DNA of 26,620 nucleotides from a virus. The position numbers were made by a program, and so were the translations under genes. Location: positions 1-26,620 of the IMG/VR virus record IMGVR_UViG_3300033182_000574; one strand, 5' to 3'. Positions 5,051 through 26,620 of the stretch are shown piece by piece. Below the pieces are notes generated by a model. That model was not told the origin of the DNA and did no database searches. It was given only the letters and a program-made list of their open reading frames with translations. The number at the start of each line of letters is the position of its first letter. Position 1 is the first letter of the stretch.

Positions 5051-5102
5051 TGTGTAAAGAAAATCAGGTATATTATTTCCCTTCAGAACTTAAAGTACTT
5101 AA

Positions 5103-5112
5103 TTATATAAGT
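5103..5112. promoter_or_regulatory. AT-rich palindromic motif, candidate late promoter element
   Basis: The 135-base gap before the tape measure gene contains TTATATAA followed by GT. The octamer is its own reverse complement and recurs in three other late intergenic gaps (7185, 9301, 11606), there followed by TG. It overlaps a TAAGTTTG (5108-5115), which fits the Bacteroidota -7 consensus TAnnTTTG, but no TTTG -33 partner is visible at the right distance. Read as a -10 element it would serve the tape measure gene, whose start is about 75 bases downstream. Confidence 0.35.
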
Positions 5113-5185
5113 TTGTAAGAGAGTTGGGCAGTATTTTAGAAAAAAAGATGTAATTTAGAATGATTAAAAATAAGGAAACGATATA

Positions 5186-7168
5186 ATGGCTAAAACAATT
5201 CAATTTGATGTAGAAGTAGACTCGGGTAATTCGGTCAAAACGCTTGGTTCTCTCAGAGATGAATTAGAAGAAATCAATGAGGAATTAGAGAAAGTTCCCG
5301 TCGGTTCGAAGGCGTTTACTGAGTTATCAGATAAAGCAAGAGGTGTATCTTCAGAGATTAAAACCTTAGAGAAAACTTTTGAAGGGTTAGAACCTGGTCA
5401 AAAGGCAGAAGCATTTGTTGGTGCTTTTGAAACCATTGCTGGTGCTAGTGCAATTGCTGCTGGTTCGTTTTCCTTATTTGGAGTAGAATCAGAGAAGTTA
5501 GGTCAGATAGAAGAGAAAGTACAATCTACCATTGCTATCGCAGTTGGTGCTCGTTCAGTTGCTGAAGGGGCATTACAAGCAAAGATTGCTGCGAGATTGG
5601 CAATAGAGAAAGCAGTACAGGTTGCTGCTAAGGCTCAGATTGTAGTACAAACCGCACTTAATGCCGTTCTTAATGCAAACCCAATTGGATTGATTCTATT
5701 GGCTGTTGCTGGAGCAGTTGCAGTATTTACTAAGTTTGGTAATAAAATTAAATCATTTATCAAAAACTCATTAGGTCCTCTTAATGATGCATTGGAAACA
5801 GTTGGTGGATGGTTAGAAAAGTTAGGTCAGGCAATTGGTATTACTGCATCTGAAGAAGAGAAAGCAGCAGAGAGGGCAAAGGAACTAGCACAATCTAAGA
5901 TAGAACAATATGATAGAGAATTAAAACTTGCTAAAGCAAGAGGTGAAGATACTATCAAATTAGAGAAGAAAATCTTAGATGAGAAGATGAAACTCTATGA
6001 GAAAGATTCTAAGGAATACAAAGATTTAGTTGCTGATAAGAAAGCATTAGATTTACAAAGAGAAAGAGAAGTAGAGGAACAAAGAAAAGCAGAAGAGAAG
6101 AAGAGAGCAGAGGATAGAAAGAAACGTATTGCCGATTATAGAGCAAGATTAAAGGATGCTAAGAAGTTAGAATCTGAGATTGCTGCAGAAGCTGAGTTGA
6201 TTGGTTTAACTGAAACTGAAAAAGCAATTGAGTTAGAAAATCGTAAATACGAAGAGAGATTAGCAATTCTAAAGAAGTACAACTTAGATACAACTGAGTT
6301 GGAAAGATTACATCAGGAAGAATTAAATAAGATTGAAGCTGATGCAGAAGCTAAGAGACAAGCAGAGAAGGATGCGAAGGATAAGGAACAAAGAGATAAA
6401 GAGATTGCTGCTGAAGAAGAGAAACAAGCATTACTCTTAGAGATTAGAGATGCAACTGCAACTTCAGAACAACAACAAAGAGATTTAGAATTAACTAAAT
6501 TAGCTGAGTACTATGACCAATTGATTCTTGCAGCTCAAGAGGCTGGTTTGGAAACTCAGAACTTAGAAGATGCTAAGAACGCTGCACTTTCTATGAAGAA
6601 GGATGAGTTCAGAGCTAATGATGCTGAGAAAGAGAAGGCATATCAACAACAAATCAAAGACCTTACTATTGGTGCAGCAACTGATGTTATCTCAACTCTA
6701 TCATCACTTAATGAATTGTTTGCTGGTGAAAGTGAAGCAGAACAGAAGAAAGCGTTTAAGAGACAACAAGCATTACAAATTGCACAAACAATTATTGATA
6801 CATTCCGTTCAGCGACTGGTGCATTCCAATCACTTGCTCCTATTCCAATTGTAGGACCTGCATTGGGTGGTGTTGCAGCCGCAGCTGCTGTTGCTGCTGG
6901 TTTGGCTAACGTTAAGAAGATTAAACAACAAAAGTTTGAAGGTGCTAGTGCTAGTGGTGGAAGTACACCATCTGCTGGTGGACAAGGTGGAAGAGGTGGT
7001 GGATTAACTCCATCTACTGGAACACTTACAGTACCTGAAGGTAGTATCAAAACTCCTAATGTACCAATTGGTGGTGGGAGCGGTGCAATCAAAACTTATG
7101 TACTTGCTGGAGATGTTACTAATGGACAAGAGGCAGAGAAGAAGATAGAACAAAGAAGAACAGTATAA
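5186..7168 (+). CDS. Tape measure protein
   Basis: A 660-residue protein with the classic layout of a tail tape measure. An N-terminal beta/helix segment (1-60) is followed by a hydrophobic alanine-rich region with NPIGLILLAVAGAVAV near residues 163-180. Next comes a very long charged coiled coil rich in Lys/Glu/Arg/Ala (about 215-500), and then a second hydrophobic segment (PIVGPALGG, about 550-575) and a Gly/Ser-rich tail. In siphoviruses this protein fills the tail tube and sets its length; at the usual 1.5 angstrom per residue it predicts a tail of roughly 100 nm. It is preceded by AAGGAAACGATATA-ATG. Unusually, the tail chaperone that should act on it lies about 7 kb upstream on the circle instead of directly before it. 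Confidence 0.88.
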   Translation: MAKTIQFDVEVDSGNSVKTLGSLRDELEEINEELEKVPVGSKAFTELSDKARGVSSEIKTLEKTFEGLEPGQKAEAFVGAFETIAGASAIAAGSFSLFGVESEKLGQIEEKVQSTIAIAVGARSVAEGALQAKIAARLAIEKAVQVAAKAQIVVQTALNAVLNANPIGLILLAVAGAVAVFTKFGNKIKSFIKNSLGPLNDALETVGGWLEKLGQAIGITASEEEKAAERAKELAQSKIEQYDRELKLAKARGEDTIKLEKKILDEKMKLYEKDSKEYKDLVADKKALDLQREREVEEQRKAEEKKRAEDRKKRIADYRARLKDAKKLESEIAAEAELIGLTETEKAIELENRKYEERLAILKKYNLDTTELERLHQEELNKIEADAEAKRQAEKDAKDKEQRDKEIAAEEEKQALLLEIRDATATSEQQQRDLELTKLAEYYDQLILAAQEAGLETQNLEDAKNAALSMKKDEFRANDAEKEKAYQQQIKDLTIGAATDVISTLSSLNELFAGESEAEQKKAFKRQQALQIAQTIIDTFRSATGAFQSLAPIPIVGPALGGVAAAAAVAAGLANVKKIKQQKFEGASASGGSTPSAGGQGGRGGGLTPSTGTLTVPEGSIKTPNVPIGGGSGAIKTYVLAGDVTNGQEAEKKIEQRRTV

Positions 7169-7207: not shown

Positions 7208-7447
7208 ATGAAAAAAATAATTAACTGGTTTAGTGGTTTATTAAAGGATGAGAAGGGAACACCATCATCTAAAAGATTCATAGGAATAATCGCAGGATTA
7301 TCTTTATGTATAACACTATTTGCAAATCAATTTACAGATGAATATATTGCACCAGCATCAACGTTGGTACAAGCAGTTACAGCACTTGCCTTTGGGGCAT
7401 TGGGATTGGCATCAATAGATAAAATTTGGGGTAATAAAAATGAGTGA
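7208..7447 (+). CDS. Holin-like two-segment membrane protein
   Basis: A 79-residue protein: a basic N-terminus (KKIINWF, then KDEKGTPSSKR), a first hydrophobic segment at about 24-41 (IGIIAGLSLCITLFA), a short loop with acidic residues, a second hydrophobic segment at about 50-71 (ASTLVQAVTALAFGALGLAS) and a charged C-terminus. Size and layout match small class II-type holins, which form the inner-membrane lesion that times lysis. It sits between the tape measure and the prohead protease and overlaps the protease start by 8 bases. No endolysin is adjacent, so the lysis role rests on topology alone. It could instead be a structural membrane-associated protein. Confidence 0.6.
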   Translation: MKKIINWFSGLLKDEKGTPSSKRFIGIIAGLSLCITLFANQFTDEYIAPASTLVQAVTALAFGALGLASIDKIWGNKNE

Positions 7448-9299
7448 GTCAATAAAAGTAATTAAGTTAGACATCGATGAGATGGATGAACTATCAGGTG
7501 TTGATGCAATTGCATTAGTAGAAGAACCTGCCATTGAGGCAGATTTTATGTATTTTACAAAACACCAACCACATGCATTTGAATCTTATTCAGATTATCC
7601 TGATGCAGTTTCTAATAATGCTAAGAGAGGTATTGAACTGAATGAGAAGGTAAATAACAAATGCGCAACTCAAGTCGGCAAGGTACGTGCACAACAACTT
7701 GCAAAGGGTGAAAAGATTTCAGTAGAAACAATTAAACGCATGTATTCGTATCTAAGTAGAGCTGAGGAATATTATGATGAATCTGATACTACTGCTTGTG
7801 GGACTATCTCATATTTGTTGTGGGGTGGTCTTGCTGCTAAGAGATGGAGTGAATCAAAACTCAAAGAATTAGGATTATTCGAAGGTGATGTAGATGTTAG
7901 TGGTTTACCTGACTATGTAAACGAACCAAGTGGTTCAGTAATCCCTAAAGACATCTTCGTAACTCCATCAGCCGGAGAAACTGAAGAAGAGTTTATTGGC
8001 AGATGTATCCCAGTCGTTAGAGGTGAAGGATATGATGAGGACCAATCTATTGCAATTTGTTATTCTTATTGGAGAGAGAGAATGGAAATCAACAACTATA
8101 TGGAAGAACTCTTTGATTTTATGGGTTACATCGATGGATTACCTGTATTCTCAACACCAGAAGAAGCTAGTGAAGTTGCAGAGATTGCGGGATGTAGTGG
8201 ATACCACGAACATCCAATGGGTGAATTCTTAGTTTATATGCCTTGCGAAATACATGAACCAGAGATGGATGAGGTTTTGAATGAAGCATATGAAGTTTGG
8301 AAGAAATCTAAACAAAAGAGTTGGCATGATTTAGATGATAAAACTCAGGAAGATGTTCTAAACTACTTAGAATCAGTAGCTGAAGAAGCACCTAGCAAAG
8401 AAGGATTCAATACAATCAAATCAATTCCTGGTGGAAGAACTCAAAAGCAGACAATCGATACTGTATCATTTATGGATACACCAACTACTAAGACAAGATA
8501 TGTATATGATGTAAGACCTGGACACGGTAGTAGATTACAAGGTAATAGTAGAGATTTTTGTAGAGAGTTGATTACGAGATTCACCAATAGAAATAAAGTA
8601 TTCAGAAAAGAAGATATCAACAATATGAGTATTGCTGGTGTTAACACAGGTTTCGGACCAGGTGGTGTTGACCAGTACGATATCTTTAATTACGTTGGTG
8701 GAAACAATTGTAGACACGAATGGAGAACTGTAACATATAGATTAGAGAATGGTAATTGGGTAGATTCAACTATGAAAGTTGTATCTCCGGTTGATAAGCA
8801 AGAAACCGAATCATCTATTGATATTATTACAGGCAGAACCATTACTGAATTAGGTATTGGTACTGGATTCTCACATCAAAAATTTGAAGAACAACAAATA
8901 GTGGCTGGACCACTAATGATTCCAAATAAGTTAATCTATCGTTTCGATTTAGAGAATGGTGAATATTATGTTTACTTCTCAGAAGAAACAATTAAGAAGA
9001 TTGCTTATAAATGGATGGAAAAGAAATATACTGATAGTACCAATATTGAACATGATATGTCTGACCCATTGAGTGATGTATATGTAGTTGAGAGTTGGTT
9101 AGTATCAGACCCAGATAGAGATAAATCATCTATTTATTCTAATGGGGAAAAATATCCTAAAGGTACTTGGTATGGAATGATGAAAATCAAAAACAAAGAA
9201 GTTTGGGATAATTATGTAAAGACAGGAAAAGTAAAAGGTTTTTCTGTTGAAGGGTTCTTTATCGATGAATTATTAAATAATTCACAGATAAAGGATTAA
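7440..9299 (+). CDS. Multidomain XkdF-type prohead protease / capsid-associated protein
   Basis: A 619-residue fusion. Residues 1-35 (VIKLDIDEMDELSGVDAIAL, then VEEPAIE) match the start of XkdF-like (Peptidase_S78_2) proteases, and the C-terminal part from about 487 to 610 matches its body (VAGPLMIPNKLIYR, a histidine in IEHDMSDPLSD, VVESWLV, GTWYGMMKI and GFSVEGFF, a plausible catalytic serine region). Between them are separable modules. At 59-145 is the phage motif with AKRGIELNEKVN, SVETIKRMYSYLSR and LLWGG. At 185-212 is a GRCIPVV...AICYSYW motif. At 228-272 is a small Cys/His segment (GCSGYHEHPMGEF, MPCEIH). At 361-430 is a segment ending in CRHEW that recalls the end of Mu-F-like minor head domains. 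Its position just before scaffold and capsid genes fits a head maturation protease. Catalytic residues are inferred, not proven. Confidence 0.72.
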   Translation: MSESIKVIKLDIDEMDELSGVDAIALVEEPAIEADFMYFTKHQPHAFESYSDYPDAVSNNAKRGIELNEKVNNKCATQVGKVRAQQLAKGEKISVETIKRMYSYLSRAEEYYDESDTTACGTISYLLWGGLAAKRWSESKLKELGLFEGDVDVSGLPDYVNEPSGSVIPKDIFVTPSAGETEEEFIGRCIPVVRGEGYDEDQSIAICYSYWRERMEINNYMEELFDFMGYIDGLPVFSTPEEASEVAEIAGCSGYHEHPMGEFLVYMPCEIHEPEMDEVLNEAYEVWKKSKQKSWHDLDDKTQEDVLNYLESVAEEAPSKEGFNTIKSIPGGRTQKQTIDTVSFMDTPTTKTRYVYDVRPGHGSRLQGNSRDFCRELITRFTNRNKVFRKEDINNMSIAGVNTGFGPGGVDQYDIFNYVGGNNCRHEWRTVTYRLENGNWVDSTMKVVSPVDKQETESSIDIITGRTITELGIGTGFSHQKFEEQQIVAGPLMIPNKLIYRFDLENGEYYVYFSEETIKKIAYKWMEKKYTDSTNIEHDMSDPLSDVYVVESWLVSDPDRDKSSIYSNGEKYPKGTWYGMMKIKNKEVWDNYVKTGKVKGFSVEGFFIDELLNNSQIKD

Positions 9300-21799: not shown

Positions 21800-23035
21800 A
21801 TGAAGATAACAGGATTTAAACCACATAAGAAACAAAAAGATATAATTGATTCTATCCTTTCAGATGAAACTATGTTTCACTCTGTTGTAGTGGGTAGACA
21901 GTTTGGCAAGACTTTAATGTCTATCAATCTACTTATGTACTTTGGGTTGAATAACAACAATTCTAAGATACTATGGATATCTCCAGTATATTCACAATCA
22001 GCAAAAGTATTCCAACAAATCTTTCAATCCCTACACCCAGCAGGATTGATTAAATCTGCAAACAAATCTGATTTCGTTATTCAGTTAATCAATGGTACAA
22101 CCATTTGGTTTAAATCATCAGAAAGACCTGAAACTATTAGAGGTTTATCTATTCAGTATGCATTCATTGACGAATCACAAGATGTAAAGGATATTGCTTG
22201 GAAACAATCTATTCTACCTACTCTAACTGCAGCAGGTAAGAAGTGTATCATCACAGGTACTCCTAAAAGAAAGAATTGGTTCTATGATATCTTTATGATG
22301 GGTAAATCAGATACACATACTAACTATCGTTCATATCATGGTGCATCAATTGATTCTCCTTATGTTTCACAACAATTTATTGAAGAACAAAAGAGAACCC
22401 TACCACCAAAGATATTTAAGCAAGAGTTCTTGGCTGAATGGCAAGATAATGAAGGTTCAGTATTTCAAGGAATTGATAATGTTTGTATTTGGGATAATTG
22501 GCCTGATAGACATAGAGATATGAGGGTATATGGTGGATTGGATATTGGTAACAAAGGTGATTATACAGTCCTTACTATTATAGATGAGTTAGGTAGAGTA
22601 TTGTATATATGGAGAGAGAATAAGACTGAGTACTCTCTAATCGTAGATAAAGTTGTGGAGATATGCAAACACTATAAGGTATCAGATTTACTCTTAGAAG
22701 TAAACGGAGTGGGAGACCCGATATACGAAATGGTAAAGAAAAAATATAGTAGAACAACACCACTAACACAAACACAACAAACAAAAGAGAATATCATCAG
22801 AAGATTGATGGGTGATATACAAGACCATGCAATAGAACTACCATCACATAACTTATTTCCTTCTCTAAGTGAAGAACTAGAAATATTTGAGTATGAGGTA
22901 CTACCATCAGGTAAAATACGTTATACACATCCACAAGGGTTTCACGATGATTGTGTAATATCTCTTGCAATGGCAAATTGGAATAGAGTAAATTCAAAGA
23001 GAGGTAGTGGTATAAAGATAGGAAGCTTACGATGA
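21800..23035 (+). CDS. Terminase large subunit
   Basis: A 411-residue protein with both domains of TerL. Walker A is GRQFGKT at 32-38, Walker B is YAFIDE at 120-125 with the catalytic glutamate E125, and the coupling motif is TGTP at 152-155. The RNase H-fold nuclease carries D248 in GGLDIGNKGD, E300 in LLLEVNGVGD and the acidic pair D383-D384 in GFHDDCVISLAMA. It pumps DNA into the prohead and cuts it. The gene follows the initiator by 2 bases and overlaps the next small gene by ATGA. The length is on the short side of the family. Confidence 0.95.
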   Translation: MKITGFKPHKKQKDIIDSILSDETMFHSVVVGRQFGKTLMSINLLMYFGLNNNNSKILWISPVYSQSAKVFQQIFQSLHPAGLIKSANKSDFVIQLINGTTIWFKSSERPETIRGLSIQYAFIDESQDVKDIAWKQSILPTLTAAGKKCIITGTPKRKNWFYDIFMMGKSDTHTNYRSYHGASIDSPYVSQQFIEEQKRTLPPKIFKQEFLAEWQDNEGSVFQGIDNVCIWDNWPDRHRDMRVYGGLDIGNKGDYTVLTIIDELGRVLYIWRENKTEYSLIVDKVVEICKHYKVSDLLLEVNGVGDPIYEMVKKKYSRTTPLTQTQQTKENIIRRLMGDIQDHAIELPSHNLFPSLSEELEIFEYEVLPSGKIRYTHPQGFHDDCVISLAMANWNRVNSKRGSGIKIGSLR

Positions 23036-23178
23036 AAGGTAAAGAAAAGAAATTTACAACTAATGATTTGGGTATTACTGATATCCATGTATATCTAAAC
23101 AACTTACTATACATTCAGATGTTAAAGGATGCTAAGAACGATAAAGAAATCAAATACGAAATCCAAAAACAAAAGTAA
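23032..23178 (+). CDS. Small hypothetical protein, 48 residues
   Basis: This gene overlaps the TerL stop by ATGA and the next gene's ATG by 1 base (TAATG), which strongly supports it despite its size. The sequence is basic and helical (DIHVYLNNLLYIQMLKDAKNDKEI). No motif is recognised. Position between TerL and a GIY-YIG-like protein suggests a packaging or DNA-processing accessory. Confidence 0.6.
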   Translation: MKGKEKKFTTNDLGITDIHVYLNNLLYIQMLKDAKNDKEIKYEIQKQK

Positions 23179-23582
23179 TGTGGTATTATAAAGATACTAA
23201 CATAGTAGTAAGGGATACACCAGATAGAGCGGTAGGATTCATTTATATGATAACTCATCAACCTACTGGGTTATATTACATTGGTAAGAAATCACTTTAC
23301 TCAAATAGAACCCTTCCACCACTAAAAGGTAAGAAACGTAAACGTAGAGTAACGAAAGAAAGTGATTGGAGAGAATACTATTCATCTAATGATTGGATTA
23401 GAGAAATGGTAAGAGAAGGTAAAGAGGATGAGTTTAGAAGAGAGATAATCGATTTTTGTTATTCAAAGAAATCATTGGGTTATTATGAAGTTTACTTTCA
23501 GATGTATTATGGTGTATTGGAAGATGATAATGCACTCAACGGAAACATCTTAGGTAAGTACTTTAGGAAAGATTTAACATAA
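23178..23582 (+). CDS. GIY-YIG-like nuclease next to TerL
   Basis: A 134-residue protein. Residues 20-38 (GFIYMITHQPTGLYYIGKK) carry a G-F-I-Y...Y-Y-I-G version of the GIY-YIG motif. A basic stretch follows (LPPLKGKKRKRRVTKESDW, about 47-65), then EYYSSNDWIREMV and FRREIIDFCYSKKSLGYYEVYFQ, whose glutamate is a plausible metal ligand. The layout with K-R-rich loop, ESDW and YY-S is one I associate with a family of small phage endonucleases. Role uncertain: intron-less homing, host DNA damage, or processing at the packaging site, given that it lies directly after TerL. Confidence 0.6.
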   Translation: MWYYKDTNIVVRDTPDRAVGFIYMITHQPTGLYYIGKKSLYSNRTLPPLKGKKRKRRVTKESDWREYYSSNDWIREMVREGKEDEFRREIIDFCYSKKSLGYYEVYFQMYYGVLEDDNALNGNILGKYFRKDLT

Positions 23583-24031: not shown

Positions 24032-24526
24032 ATGTCTACACAACAGTATAAAGATACAATCTTCTCAGTAGATGAGCAAGGTAATTGTTATGGTTCACGC
24101 GGTACAAAGATTGGAAACACTACTTCAAGAGGATATGTTAGAGTAGGTGAATCTATCGGTAAAAAGAATGGTGTTCGTAAGAAGAAATACTATAAAGTTC
24201 ATAGGATGATTGCTGAAACCTTTATTCCTAATCCCAACAATCTACCTCAAGTCAATCATATCAACGGAATCAAAACTGATAATCGAGTAGAAAACTTAGA
24301 ATGGTGTAATACTTCTCAGAATATGCAACACGCATTTGATAGTGGGTTACATAGTGGTGTAGGAGAGAATCATTATATGGCTAAGGTATCAGATGATGAA
24401 GTAAGGTACATTAGAGAACAATACTCAACTGGTAAGTACACTATATCTAAGATAGCTAAAGTATTCAATATGAGTTATCACAGTTGTTATAATATTGTAA
24501 AACGAAAAACAAGAAAATATATTTAA
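24032..24526 (+). CDS. HNH homing endonuclease
   Basis: A 164-residue protein in three parts: an N-terminal NUMOD4-like segment (1-50, GNCYGSRGTKIGNTTSRGYVR), an HNH_3-type nuclease with H57 in VHRMIAETF, NHINGIKTDNRVENLEW at 75-91 (H76, N84, N88) and a final QNMQHAF, and a C-terminal helix-turn-helix (DDEVRYIREQYSTGKYTISKIAKVFNMSYHS) that helps DNA recognition. Free-standing enzymes of this kind cut related genomes that lack the gene and spread by repair. The start at 24032 has AAAGGATATAA before it; an overlapping 15-codon frame begins at 24004 after CGGAGAAGC. It is flanked by structured RNA candidates on both sides. Confidence 0.85.
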   Translation: MSTQQYKDTIFSVDEQGNCYGSRGTKIGNTTSRGYVRVGESIGKKNGVRKKKYYKVHRMIAETFIPNPNNLPQVNHINGIKTDNRVENLEWCNTSQNMQHAFDSGLHSGVGENHYMAKVSDDEVRYIREQYSTGKYTISKIAKVFNMSYHSCYNIVKRKTRKYI

Positions 24527-24605: not shown

Positions 24606-24636
24606 CCTCCAGTCAGTTCTTTGGCTGGGGGTTTTT
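24606..24636 (+). terminator. Rho-independent terminator before the tail operon
   Basis: CCTCCAGTCA (24606-24615) pairs over 10 positions with TGGCTGGGGG (24622-24631), using two G-U pairs, around a GTTCTT loop, then TTTTT. It separates the HNH gene from the tail chaperone, so the tail genes need their own promoter between here and 24692. The AT-rich sequence AATAATATAAAGTATAAAGG just before the gene is the only candidate. Confidence 0.85.
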
Positions 24637-24691
24637 ATGTTTTATACAATCAACTAATTTAACGAATAATATAAAGTATAAAGGAATGATT

Positions 24692-25417
24692 ATGGCAGAG
24701 AAGAAAACAATTAAGGTAGAATTACCTGAATACTTTAGTATCCAGCACTACAAAGCGATGGGTTCTTTCGAACATTTAGATGATGTCGAAAAGATTATTA
24801 TGACTGTTAGTGCATTGACTGGACATGATGTAGAAGAGATTGAGAGATGGGCATTAACCGATTTGATGAAAATCTACAATGAGGCTGGTAAGATAATGCA
24901 TAACACAGGTGGACAATTCTATCCTGTCTTTGAATTTAAAGATACTATCTATGGATTCCAACCCTTATCTAAGATGAGTGTTGCTGAGTTTATGGATTTG
25001 GAGAAGAGGTTGCAAGACCCTATGAATAACTTAGAAGAGATACTAGCAATCCTTTATAGACCTATTACATCACATAAGTTCAATGGAATGGAGTGGATGC
25101 ATAAATCATACATTAAGATTCTTAAAGGTGAGAACGAATCAATGTTCAAATACTATGAAGTAGAAGAGTATGATACAGAGAAAAGAGATTGGCGAGTAGA
25201 TATATTCAAAGAGTTACCATTGGAATATTGTATTGGAGTTCTTAGTTTTTTTTTGGGCTTAGGACTACAACTCTCTCTAAGTTCAGTAATATCTTCGGAA
25301 AATCTGACACCAGTGGAGAAGGAGACGATGATAGAAGTGATAGAGGAGGCCCTTCTATCGCTGAACATTACGGATGGCTCTATATCCTCAGAAACCTCGA
25401 TACAAGAAGAATCTTAG
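24692..25417 (+). CDS. Tail assembly chaperone, short form (gpG-like)
   Basis: A 241-residue product read without frameshifting. The ATG at 24692 is chosen because AAAGGA lies 7 bases upstream; ATG 24686 is in frame and adds two residues, and an earlier ATG at 24569 would cross the terminator. Residues about 65-130 contain VFEFKDTIYGFQPLSKMSVAEFMDLEKRL and LEEILAILYRPI, and residues about 165-195 contain FKELPLEYCIGVLSFFLGLG, a pattern I know from small phage proteins thought to be tail chaperones. In siphoviruses the short form coats the tape measure while the longer frameshifted form adds a tube-recruiting domain. A T9 tract at 25246-25254 provides the shift. Confidence 0.68.
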   Translation: MAEKKTIKVELPEYFSIQHYKAMGSFEHLDDVEKIIMTVSALTGHDVEEIERWALTDLMKIYNEAGKIMHNTGGQFYPVFEFKDTIYGFQPLSKMSVAEFMDLEKRLQDPMNNLEEILAILYRPITSHKFNGMEWMHKSYIKILKGENESMFKYYEVEEYDTEKRDWRVDIFKELPLEYCIGVLSFFLGLGLQLSLSSVISSENLTPVEKETMIEVIEEALLSLNITDGSISSETSIQEES

Positions 25418-25557
25418 ATATTACAGGTGGTAGTAGTGTACTGAAAGAGAACATTATATTTATTCTTAATTGGTTATCGATGGAAACGGAGATAGCTAAA
25501 CAAAAGGAAAGAGAAGAACGGCAAATGAGATTAGCAAATAAAGCAAGGTATAACTGA
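24692..25557 (+). CDS. Tail assembly chaperone, -1 frameshift product (gpGT-like)
   Basis: Slippage of one base back on TTTTTTG (25249-25255) joins 24692-25255 to 25255-25557, giving about 288 residues. The -1 frame stays open for 100 codons past the shift and codes a convincing domain: an Asp/Ser/Gly-rich linker (SDTSGEGDDDRSDRGGPS), then EHYGWLYILRNLDTRRILDI, NIIFILNWLSMETEIA and a basic helical end. The +1 frame meets a stop within four codons. It stops at TGA that overlaps the ATG of the next gene. This dual-output arrangement is the hallmark of lambda G/GT-type chaperones. Confidence 0.72.
25246..25255 (+). promoter_or_regulatory. -1 ribosomal frameshift site
   Basis: Nine T residues then GGG, read in frame as AGT TTT TTT TTG GGC. 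The heptamer T TTT TTG fits the X XXY YYZ slippery rule in the right phase. After the slip the ribosome reads GGG CTT. No strong stem was found just downstream, so a bacterial-type weak stimulator, or none, may apply. Confidence 0.75.
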
Positions 25558-26006
25558 TGAAAACGATAAAAGGATTAGAAGGATACTACATTACTGAAGA
25601 TGGTAAGGTATGGTCAGAGAAACGAAATAAGTTTCTAAAGACAAGATTGGATGAGAATGGTTACGAACGAGTTTCATTCAACATCTCAAAGGATGAGAGA
25701 TATGTAAAATCAGTTCATAGGTTAGTTGCTCAAGCATTTTTGGATAATCCTGAAGGCAAAAGGGAAGTAGCTCACTTGAATCACAATAGAAGTGACAATA
25801 GAGTAGAGAACTTACAATGGACAACACGAACGGAGAATATGCAGATGTCAGCACAAGAAGATAGGTTGATATCTATACCACGACCTAAAAGACAAAAGAT
25901 AAAGGCAATGTATGAGACTGGTAAGTATATTCAATATGAACTTGCTAATATATTTGGTATTAGTCAAGGTCGTGTTTCAGTAATCATAAATGAGGAGAGA
26001 TTATAA
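25557..26006 (+). CDS. NUMOD4-HNH homing endonuclease inside the tail operon
   Basis: A 149-residue protein: NUMOD4 at 1-40 (IKGLEGYYITEDGKVWS), HNH_3 nuclease with H54 in VHRLVAQAFLDNP, VAHLNHNRSDNRVENLQW (H73, N75, H76, N80, N85) and a QMSA end, then a C-terminal helix-turn-helix (KAMYETGKYIQYELANIFGISQGRVSVII). The start ATG overlaps the frameshift product stop (TGATG) and its stop overlaps the next gene's ATG (TAATG), so it is fitted without spacers into the tail operon. It is the same architecture as the endonuclease at 24032 but clearly diverged. Confidence 0.88.
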   Translation: MKTIKGLEGYYITEDGKVWSEKRNKFLKTRLDENGYERVSFNISKDERYVKSVHRLVAQAFLDNPEGKREVAHLNHNRSDNRVENLQWTTRTENMQMSAQEDRLISIPRPKRQKIKAMYETGKYIQYELANIFGISQGRVSVIINEERL

Positions 26007-26446: not shown

Positions 26447-26620
26447 TGGGTGATTTTCCAAACATAGAGAAAGTAGTAGAACAAGCAGCACCATTATATG
26501 CTGATTCAGTAAGAGATGCCGCTATTGCAGAAGGATTGTTTAAGAGTGGTACATTGGCTAACTCTTATTCTTCTCAAGTGGTGGTAAGACAGAATAAGAT
26601 AAAGATTCAGATATTAGGTG
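26446..26620 (+). CDS. HK97 gp10-like tail protein, 5' part (continues at base 1)
   Basis: True start of the gene that ends at 434. The ATG overlaps the preceding stop (TAATG) and opens with MGDFPNIEKVVEQAAPLYAD. The frame runs unbroken into the repeat and on through base 1 of the window, giving 155 residues in total. Confidence 0.8.
   Translation, partial: MGDFPNIEKVVEQAAPLYADSVRDAAIAEGLFKSGTLANSYSSQVVVRQNKIKIQILG
26480..26620. repeat. Terminal direct repeat, right copy
   Basis: Identical to 1-141; see the left copy. It starts inside the gp10-like gene at codon 12, not at a gene boundary. Confidence 0.95.

Follow-up and report, generated by a model that had tools for sequence, protein, structure and literature searches.

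A viral gene with a conserved T9 slip site and two endings shares the anatomy of the lambda G/GT pair

The 26,620-nucleotide viral sequence IMGVR_UViG_3300033182_000574 (hereafter, the window) contains a frameshifted gene with a conserved slip site and two conserved endings, and its -1 frame is confirmed as real. In its anatomy the gene matches a lambda G/GT pair, and it lies in the tail-gene block. The best explanation of the whole, which we consider reasonably likely, is a chaperone pair of the G/GT kind produced by a ribosomal slip. The original prediction of a programmed -1 shift yielding a C-terminally extended product is strongly upheld, since a wide family has kept the slip site and the two frames.

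The 0-frame gene (24692-25417) would encode a short, G-like product of 241 aa. It starts at ATG 24692, which has AAGGA on its 5' side, although translation could instead begin at the in-frame ATG at 24686. The N-terminal domain (24692-25252, 187 aa) is common to both products and is kept in all full-length homologues. The slip run consists of nine T (T9, 25246-25254) with the core T_TTT_TTT at 25246-25252, and is read in the 0 frame as AG[T TTT TTT] TTG GGC. The 0 frame then continues through a C-terminal tail of 54 codons plus stop (25253-25417, stop at 25415-25417), which is mostly two predicted helices (residues 177-200 and 207-223 of the 241-aa product in the AlphaFold model); the predicted T9 run and the 54 further sense codons are both borne out by the sequence. 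The -1 frame, expected to be open past the run, runs on to TGA 25555-25557 and encodes a T-like, predicted helical domain of 101 codons plus stop (25252-25557), so that the long product, of about 288 aa, is the N-terminal domain fused to the -1-frame domain. A -1-frame stop (TAG, 25243-25245) abuts the run, as it does in 6 of 20 representatives, so the shift is possible only at or after the run. The +1 frame is closed, as had been claimed, with stops after two to three codons in the window. The doubly coding overlap (25255-25417), in which substitutions are even over the three codon positions, was correctly described as richer in G+C than its flanks (43%, vs. 35% upstream and 33% downstream). 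Just 5' of the gene, an intrinsic-terminator-like hairpin followed by a T tail was found at 24606-24631, also given as 24606-24641 (two found in a consensus scan vs. 0.6 expected), which suggests that the frameshift gene may have its own transcription start. All of these features are on the plus strand.

The open -1 frame is more than a product of chance. When codons were resampled with the 0-frame protein held fixed, the -1 frame was open over the overlap in 0.5% of trials, with a mean of 4.3 stops. None of the 4,177 other in-gene positions of the window has a -1 frame open for at least 101 codons, and in-frame T_TTT_TTT is absent from all other long genes tested in the window. Furthermore, T9 is the sole run of at least eight T or A within a gene; two more exist (18572 and 18717), both of them between genes.

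Relatives were collected from IMG/VR, bacterial genomes and GenBank phages, giving 59 other homologous records (57 IMG/VR contigs, one of which is P12024L; P12024S; and the Flavobacterium MAG contig L014). Comparison among these homologues, the check proposed for the T run and both frames, supports the frameshift: the run is exactly T9 in 54 of the 59 records, T7 in three and T8 in two. The T7 records belong to two independent lineages (L016/L003 and L042), which retain the heptamer and both frames. The T8 records (L036, near 6549, and L077, near 424) are otherwise almost identical to T9 contigs, and their shorter runs are probably errors or defective copies. Beyond the slip, all T7 and T9 records have a -1 frame that stays open for 81-101 codons (in L024 it ends at the contig end) and specifies one and the same domain, and their +1 frame is shut within about 11 codons. 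The single uninterrupted gene that had been held to speak against a frameshift was found in none of the 59 records; no frames are fused and no run is T10. The original prediction erred in expecting eight or eleven T to fuse the frames, since seven or ten T would do so, whereas with eight T, the case of L036 and L077, reading passes to the +1 frame, which is closed.

The in-phase T_TTT_TTT heptamer is invariant in all 20 representatives. It replaces the T_TTT_TTG heptamer first proposed, as the codon after the conserved site is variable (TTG, TTA, ATG, ATA, TCA and TAT among the 20 representatives). The codon before the heptamer varies as well (AGT, AAT, CAT, ACT, GCT, GTT and CTT, encoding S, N, H, T, A, V and L). 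Elsewhere in the representatives' genes, TTT makes up only 50% of Phe codons. If independence is assumed, the probability that all 20 preceding codons end in T is ~10^-7 and that all 40 Phe codons are TTT is ~10^-12, both figures being overstated given shared descent. Still, the 0-frame protein cannot by itself account for a base that stays fixed while the amino acids change. In L050 and P12024S the T9 run begins and ends one base earlier, and a Leu codon after the heptamer is always TTG or TTA among the representatives.

Substitution rates at the three codon positions were compared over 13 pairs. Upstream, in the 0 frame, the rates are 0.18/0.10/0.43; in the overlap they are flat (0.25/0.19/0.26); and past the 0-frame stop, in the phase of the -1 frame, they are 0.22/0.15/0.40. 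The flat rates followed by rates in -1 phase indicate double coding and then single coding in the -1 frame. Among the closely related members of the L050 clade, variation affects 137 of 157 third positions upstream, 13 of 102 sites in the overlap, and 41 of 52 third positions of the -1 frame past the overlap. Selection thus acts on the -1 frame and, within the overlap of 54 codons, on the 0 frame as well.

A homopolymer run could reflect a sequencing or assembly error, or a decaying or phase-variable gene, and T8 does occur in two contigs (L036 and L077), but with exactly T9 in 54 other records, no T10 or fused record, and selection on both frames, this explanation is hardly credible. It is also very improbable that the locus consists of two separate genes, the second translated alone or by reinitiation. 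P12024S is annotated in this way (gp38 and gp39), and codon 26 of its -1 frame is an ATG; however, 18 of the 20 representatives have no ATG, GTG or TTG ahead of the -1 domain, the other exception being L043, whose codon 4 is TTG, and conservation of the -1 frame reaches all the way back to the T run.

Ribosomal -1 slippage is favored, and is probably the mechanism, because the heptamer is in phase everywhere and two lineages manage with T7. Slippage of RNA polymerase alone, by which one U would be added on T9 and the resulting U10 mRNA translated into the -1 frame, is a serious rival because T9 is of textbook length and no RNA stimulator was found. Nine bases is the classical length, reported to be slippage-prone in vivo for RNA polymerase (PMC5009743; PMC1088944), and the run is held at exactly nine T in 54 of 59 records, including L050 and P12024S where it is shifted; the restriction of the following Leu codon to TTG or TTA points the same way. 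No downstream RNA structure was detected by pseudoknot-free folding (z-scores -1.6 to +2.3, most of them positive), nor any conserved Shine-Dalgarno-like stimulator upstream of the slip site, and in E. coli U_UUU_UUU is a weaker site than A_AAA_AAG (PMC5009743). Against polymerase slippage as the sole cause, which we regard as unlikely, both frames persist in L016/L003 and L042, where the run is just T7, and the phase of the heptamer is never lost. Unlikely, too, is the broader proposal that slippage of the host RNA polymerase on T9, alone or together with ribosomal slippage on U_UUU_UUU, sets the ratio of the chaperone pair; if true, the ratio would not be governed by a stimulated ribosomal frameshift of the type described for other tailed phages.

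Under ribosomal slippage, most ribosomes would stay in the 0 frame and make the 241-aa G-like protein, whereas a minority, with tRNA-Phe in both the P and A sites on U_UUU_UUU, would slip one base back. Both tRNAs would re-pair with UUU in the -1 frame, and translation would proceed in that frame to give the GT-like protein of about 288 aa, whose C-terminal domain would be separate and helical. If lambda is a guide, the role of the N-terminal domain would be to cover the tape-measure protein, and that of the T-like domain to recruit the tail tube protein.

The window itself has a perfect direct repeat of 141 bases at its ends (1-141 = 26480-26620), and so probably represents an entire genome, about 26.5 kb long, that closes into a circle. 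Three homing endonuclease genes, one GIY-YIG SegE-like and two HNH, crowd the frameshift gene (23178-23582, 24032-24526 and 25557-26006), and the last of these genes starts on the A that closes the stop codon of the -1 frame (TGATG overlap). In relatives the homing endonucleases are different or missing; L014, for example, lacks one in the stretch that separates the frameshift gene from the gene after it. For the large terminase (21800-23035), the closest counterparts come from a Halorubrum phage and from Thermus phages (27-29% identity), not from the flavobacterial phages in the collection. For the portal protein, the closest is the one of Nonlabens (Persicivirga) phage P12024S, at about 25% identity. 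A 619-aa protein encoded at 7440-9299 has a C-terminal XkdF-type protease domain (Peptidase_S78_2) preceded by a long N-terminal part.

The tail-gene block is ordered terminase, frameshift gene, a 146-aa gene, a phrog_29822-related gene, genes of 445 aa and 1091 aa, and the tape-measure gene (5186-7168), and its front recurs in relatives. The P12024S member of the phrog_29822-related gene also matches a tail completion/Neck1 family. The frameshift gene adjoins the terminase and not the tape-measure gene, with five genes (one of them HNH) before the latter, and so does not occupy the usual chaperone position between the major tail protein and tape-measure genes. The interval 5051-5185, just ahead of the tape measure and where a chaperone gene would usually sit, contains no gene. 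A function in tail assembly as a chaperone is nevertheless quite likely by analogy, given the short and extended products, the tail-gene block, and the empty place before the tape measure.

Homology searches neither named the gene nor linked it to a known chaperone. Sequence searches of Pfam, PHROGs and PDB with single members and profiles returned no named family, and no sequence similarity to lambda G, lambda T or HK97 gp13 was detected. Since known chaperone pairs have low sequence similarity among phages (PMC5009743), a missing match is weak evidence. The two parts, the 241-aa product and the -1 domain, were modelled apart. The N-terminal domain with the 0-frame tail is predicted as a compact fold (AlphaFold, pLDDT 78) that matches 30 predicted phage proteins with E < 0.001, none with a named function, and Nonlabens P12024S gp38 with E 3e-8 and rmsd 3.3 Å. 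Foldseek gave no match in PDB; two BFVD matches named tail assembly chaperone (E 0.12 and 0.87) are not significant. The model of the -1 domain is helical and of low confidence, and Foldseek returned nothing usable from it. By tblastn, the window's -1 domain matches L050 (E 2e-7); this is the independent link, because the -1-domain profile A5 contains L050 as a row and an hhalign comparison between them, being circular, was not used. The match of A5 to P12024S gp39 is weak (hhalign, probability 14%, E 0.002), so the homology of gp39 rests on the N-terminal domain, the position and the slip site.

The tail chaperone claim of the original prediction therefore stands in part: anatomy and gene neighborhood fit it best, and homology to any named chaperone is lacking. 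That lack, and the placement beside the terminase instead of the tape measure, could be expected of a frameshift-extended protein with another job, e.g., a scaffold or a head-tail joining factor. We consider this unlikely, as a common domain with an extended form, in a tail-gene block with no other chaperone candidate before the tape measure, is the G/GT pattern, and no Ig-like or capsid-like domain was seen in the -1 extension.

Frameshifted tail chaperones are well known (reviewed in PMC5009743). As in lambda G/GT, one gene in the tail-gene block here would give a short and a -1-extended product with a common N-terminal domain, and the extension lies in a separate, later-ending frame. The slip site is U_UUU_UUU here and GGGAAAG in lambda, and, set against lambda, the 0-frame tail after the slip has 25-65 codons and the extension about 80-100. 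HK97 gp13/gp14 likewise has a -1 frameshift in a tail protein gene with short and long forms (annotated in NC_002167), and has no sequence similarity to the gene described here. The HK97 gene comes after the major tail subunit and before the tape measure; in lambda, too, the frameshifted gene lies between tail tube and tape measure, whereas here it is beside the terminase. Transcriptional slippage with two products is proven for the nine-base run of Thermus thermophilus dnaX (PMC1088944), but there the longer product is the in-frame one, and polymerase slippage is only a rival for the gene here.

To our knowledge, recoding has been little studied in flavobacterial and related phages. Nothing on frameshifts in flavobacterial phages was found in the literature searched, and no paper describing this frameshift family in a library thin in subscription journals. 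We could not find the family described, and with its own slip site, position and long overlap it is apparently new to the literature. It contributes a U_UUU_UUU/T9 site for which no stimulators were detected and a double-coding overlap of unusual length, and offers a likely function and a hidden second product for hypothetical phage proteins, including the 30 fold-matched predicted structures.

The closest counterparts are P12024S gp38/gp39 and P12024L gp40/gp41, which share a homologous N-terminal domain, a T9 run with T_TTT_TTT in the same place, a -1 frame open into gp39 (gp41), and a terminase directly upstream. They differ in their shorter 0-frame tail (25 codons) and in having each been deposited as two unrelated hypothetical genes. 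Each of these pairs is one frameshifted gene (L015 23136-23830), and the annotation of gp38/gp39 should be joined. Two genes of a cultured marine phage thereby gain a likely function, and P12024S and its host make the frameshift directly testable.
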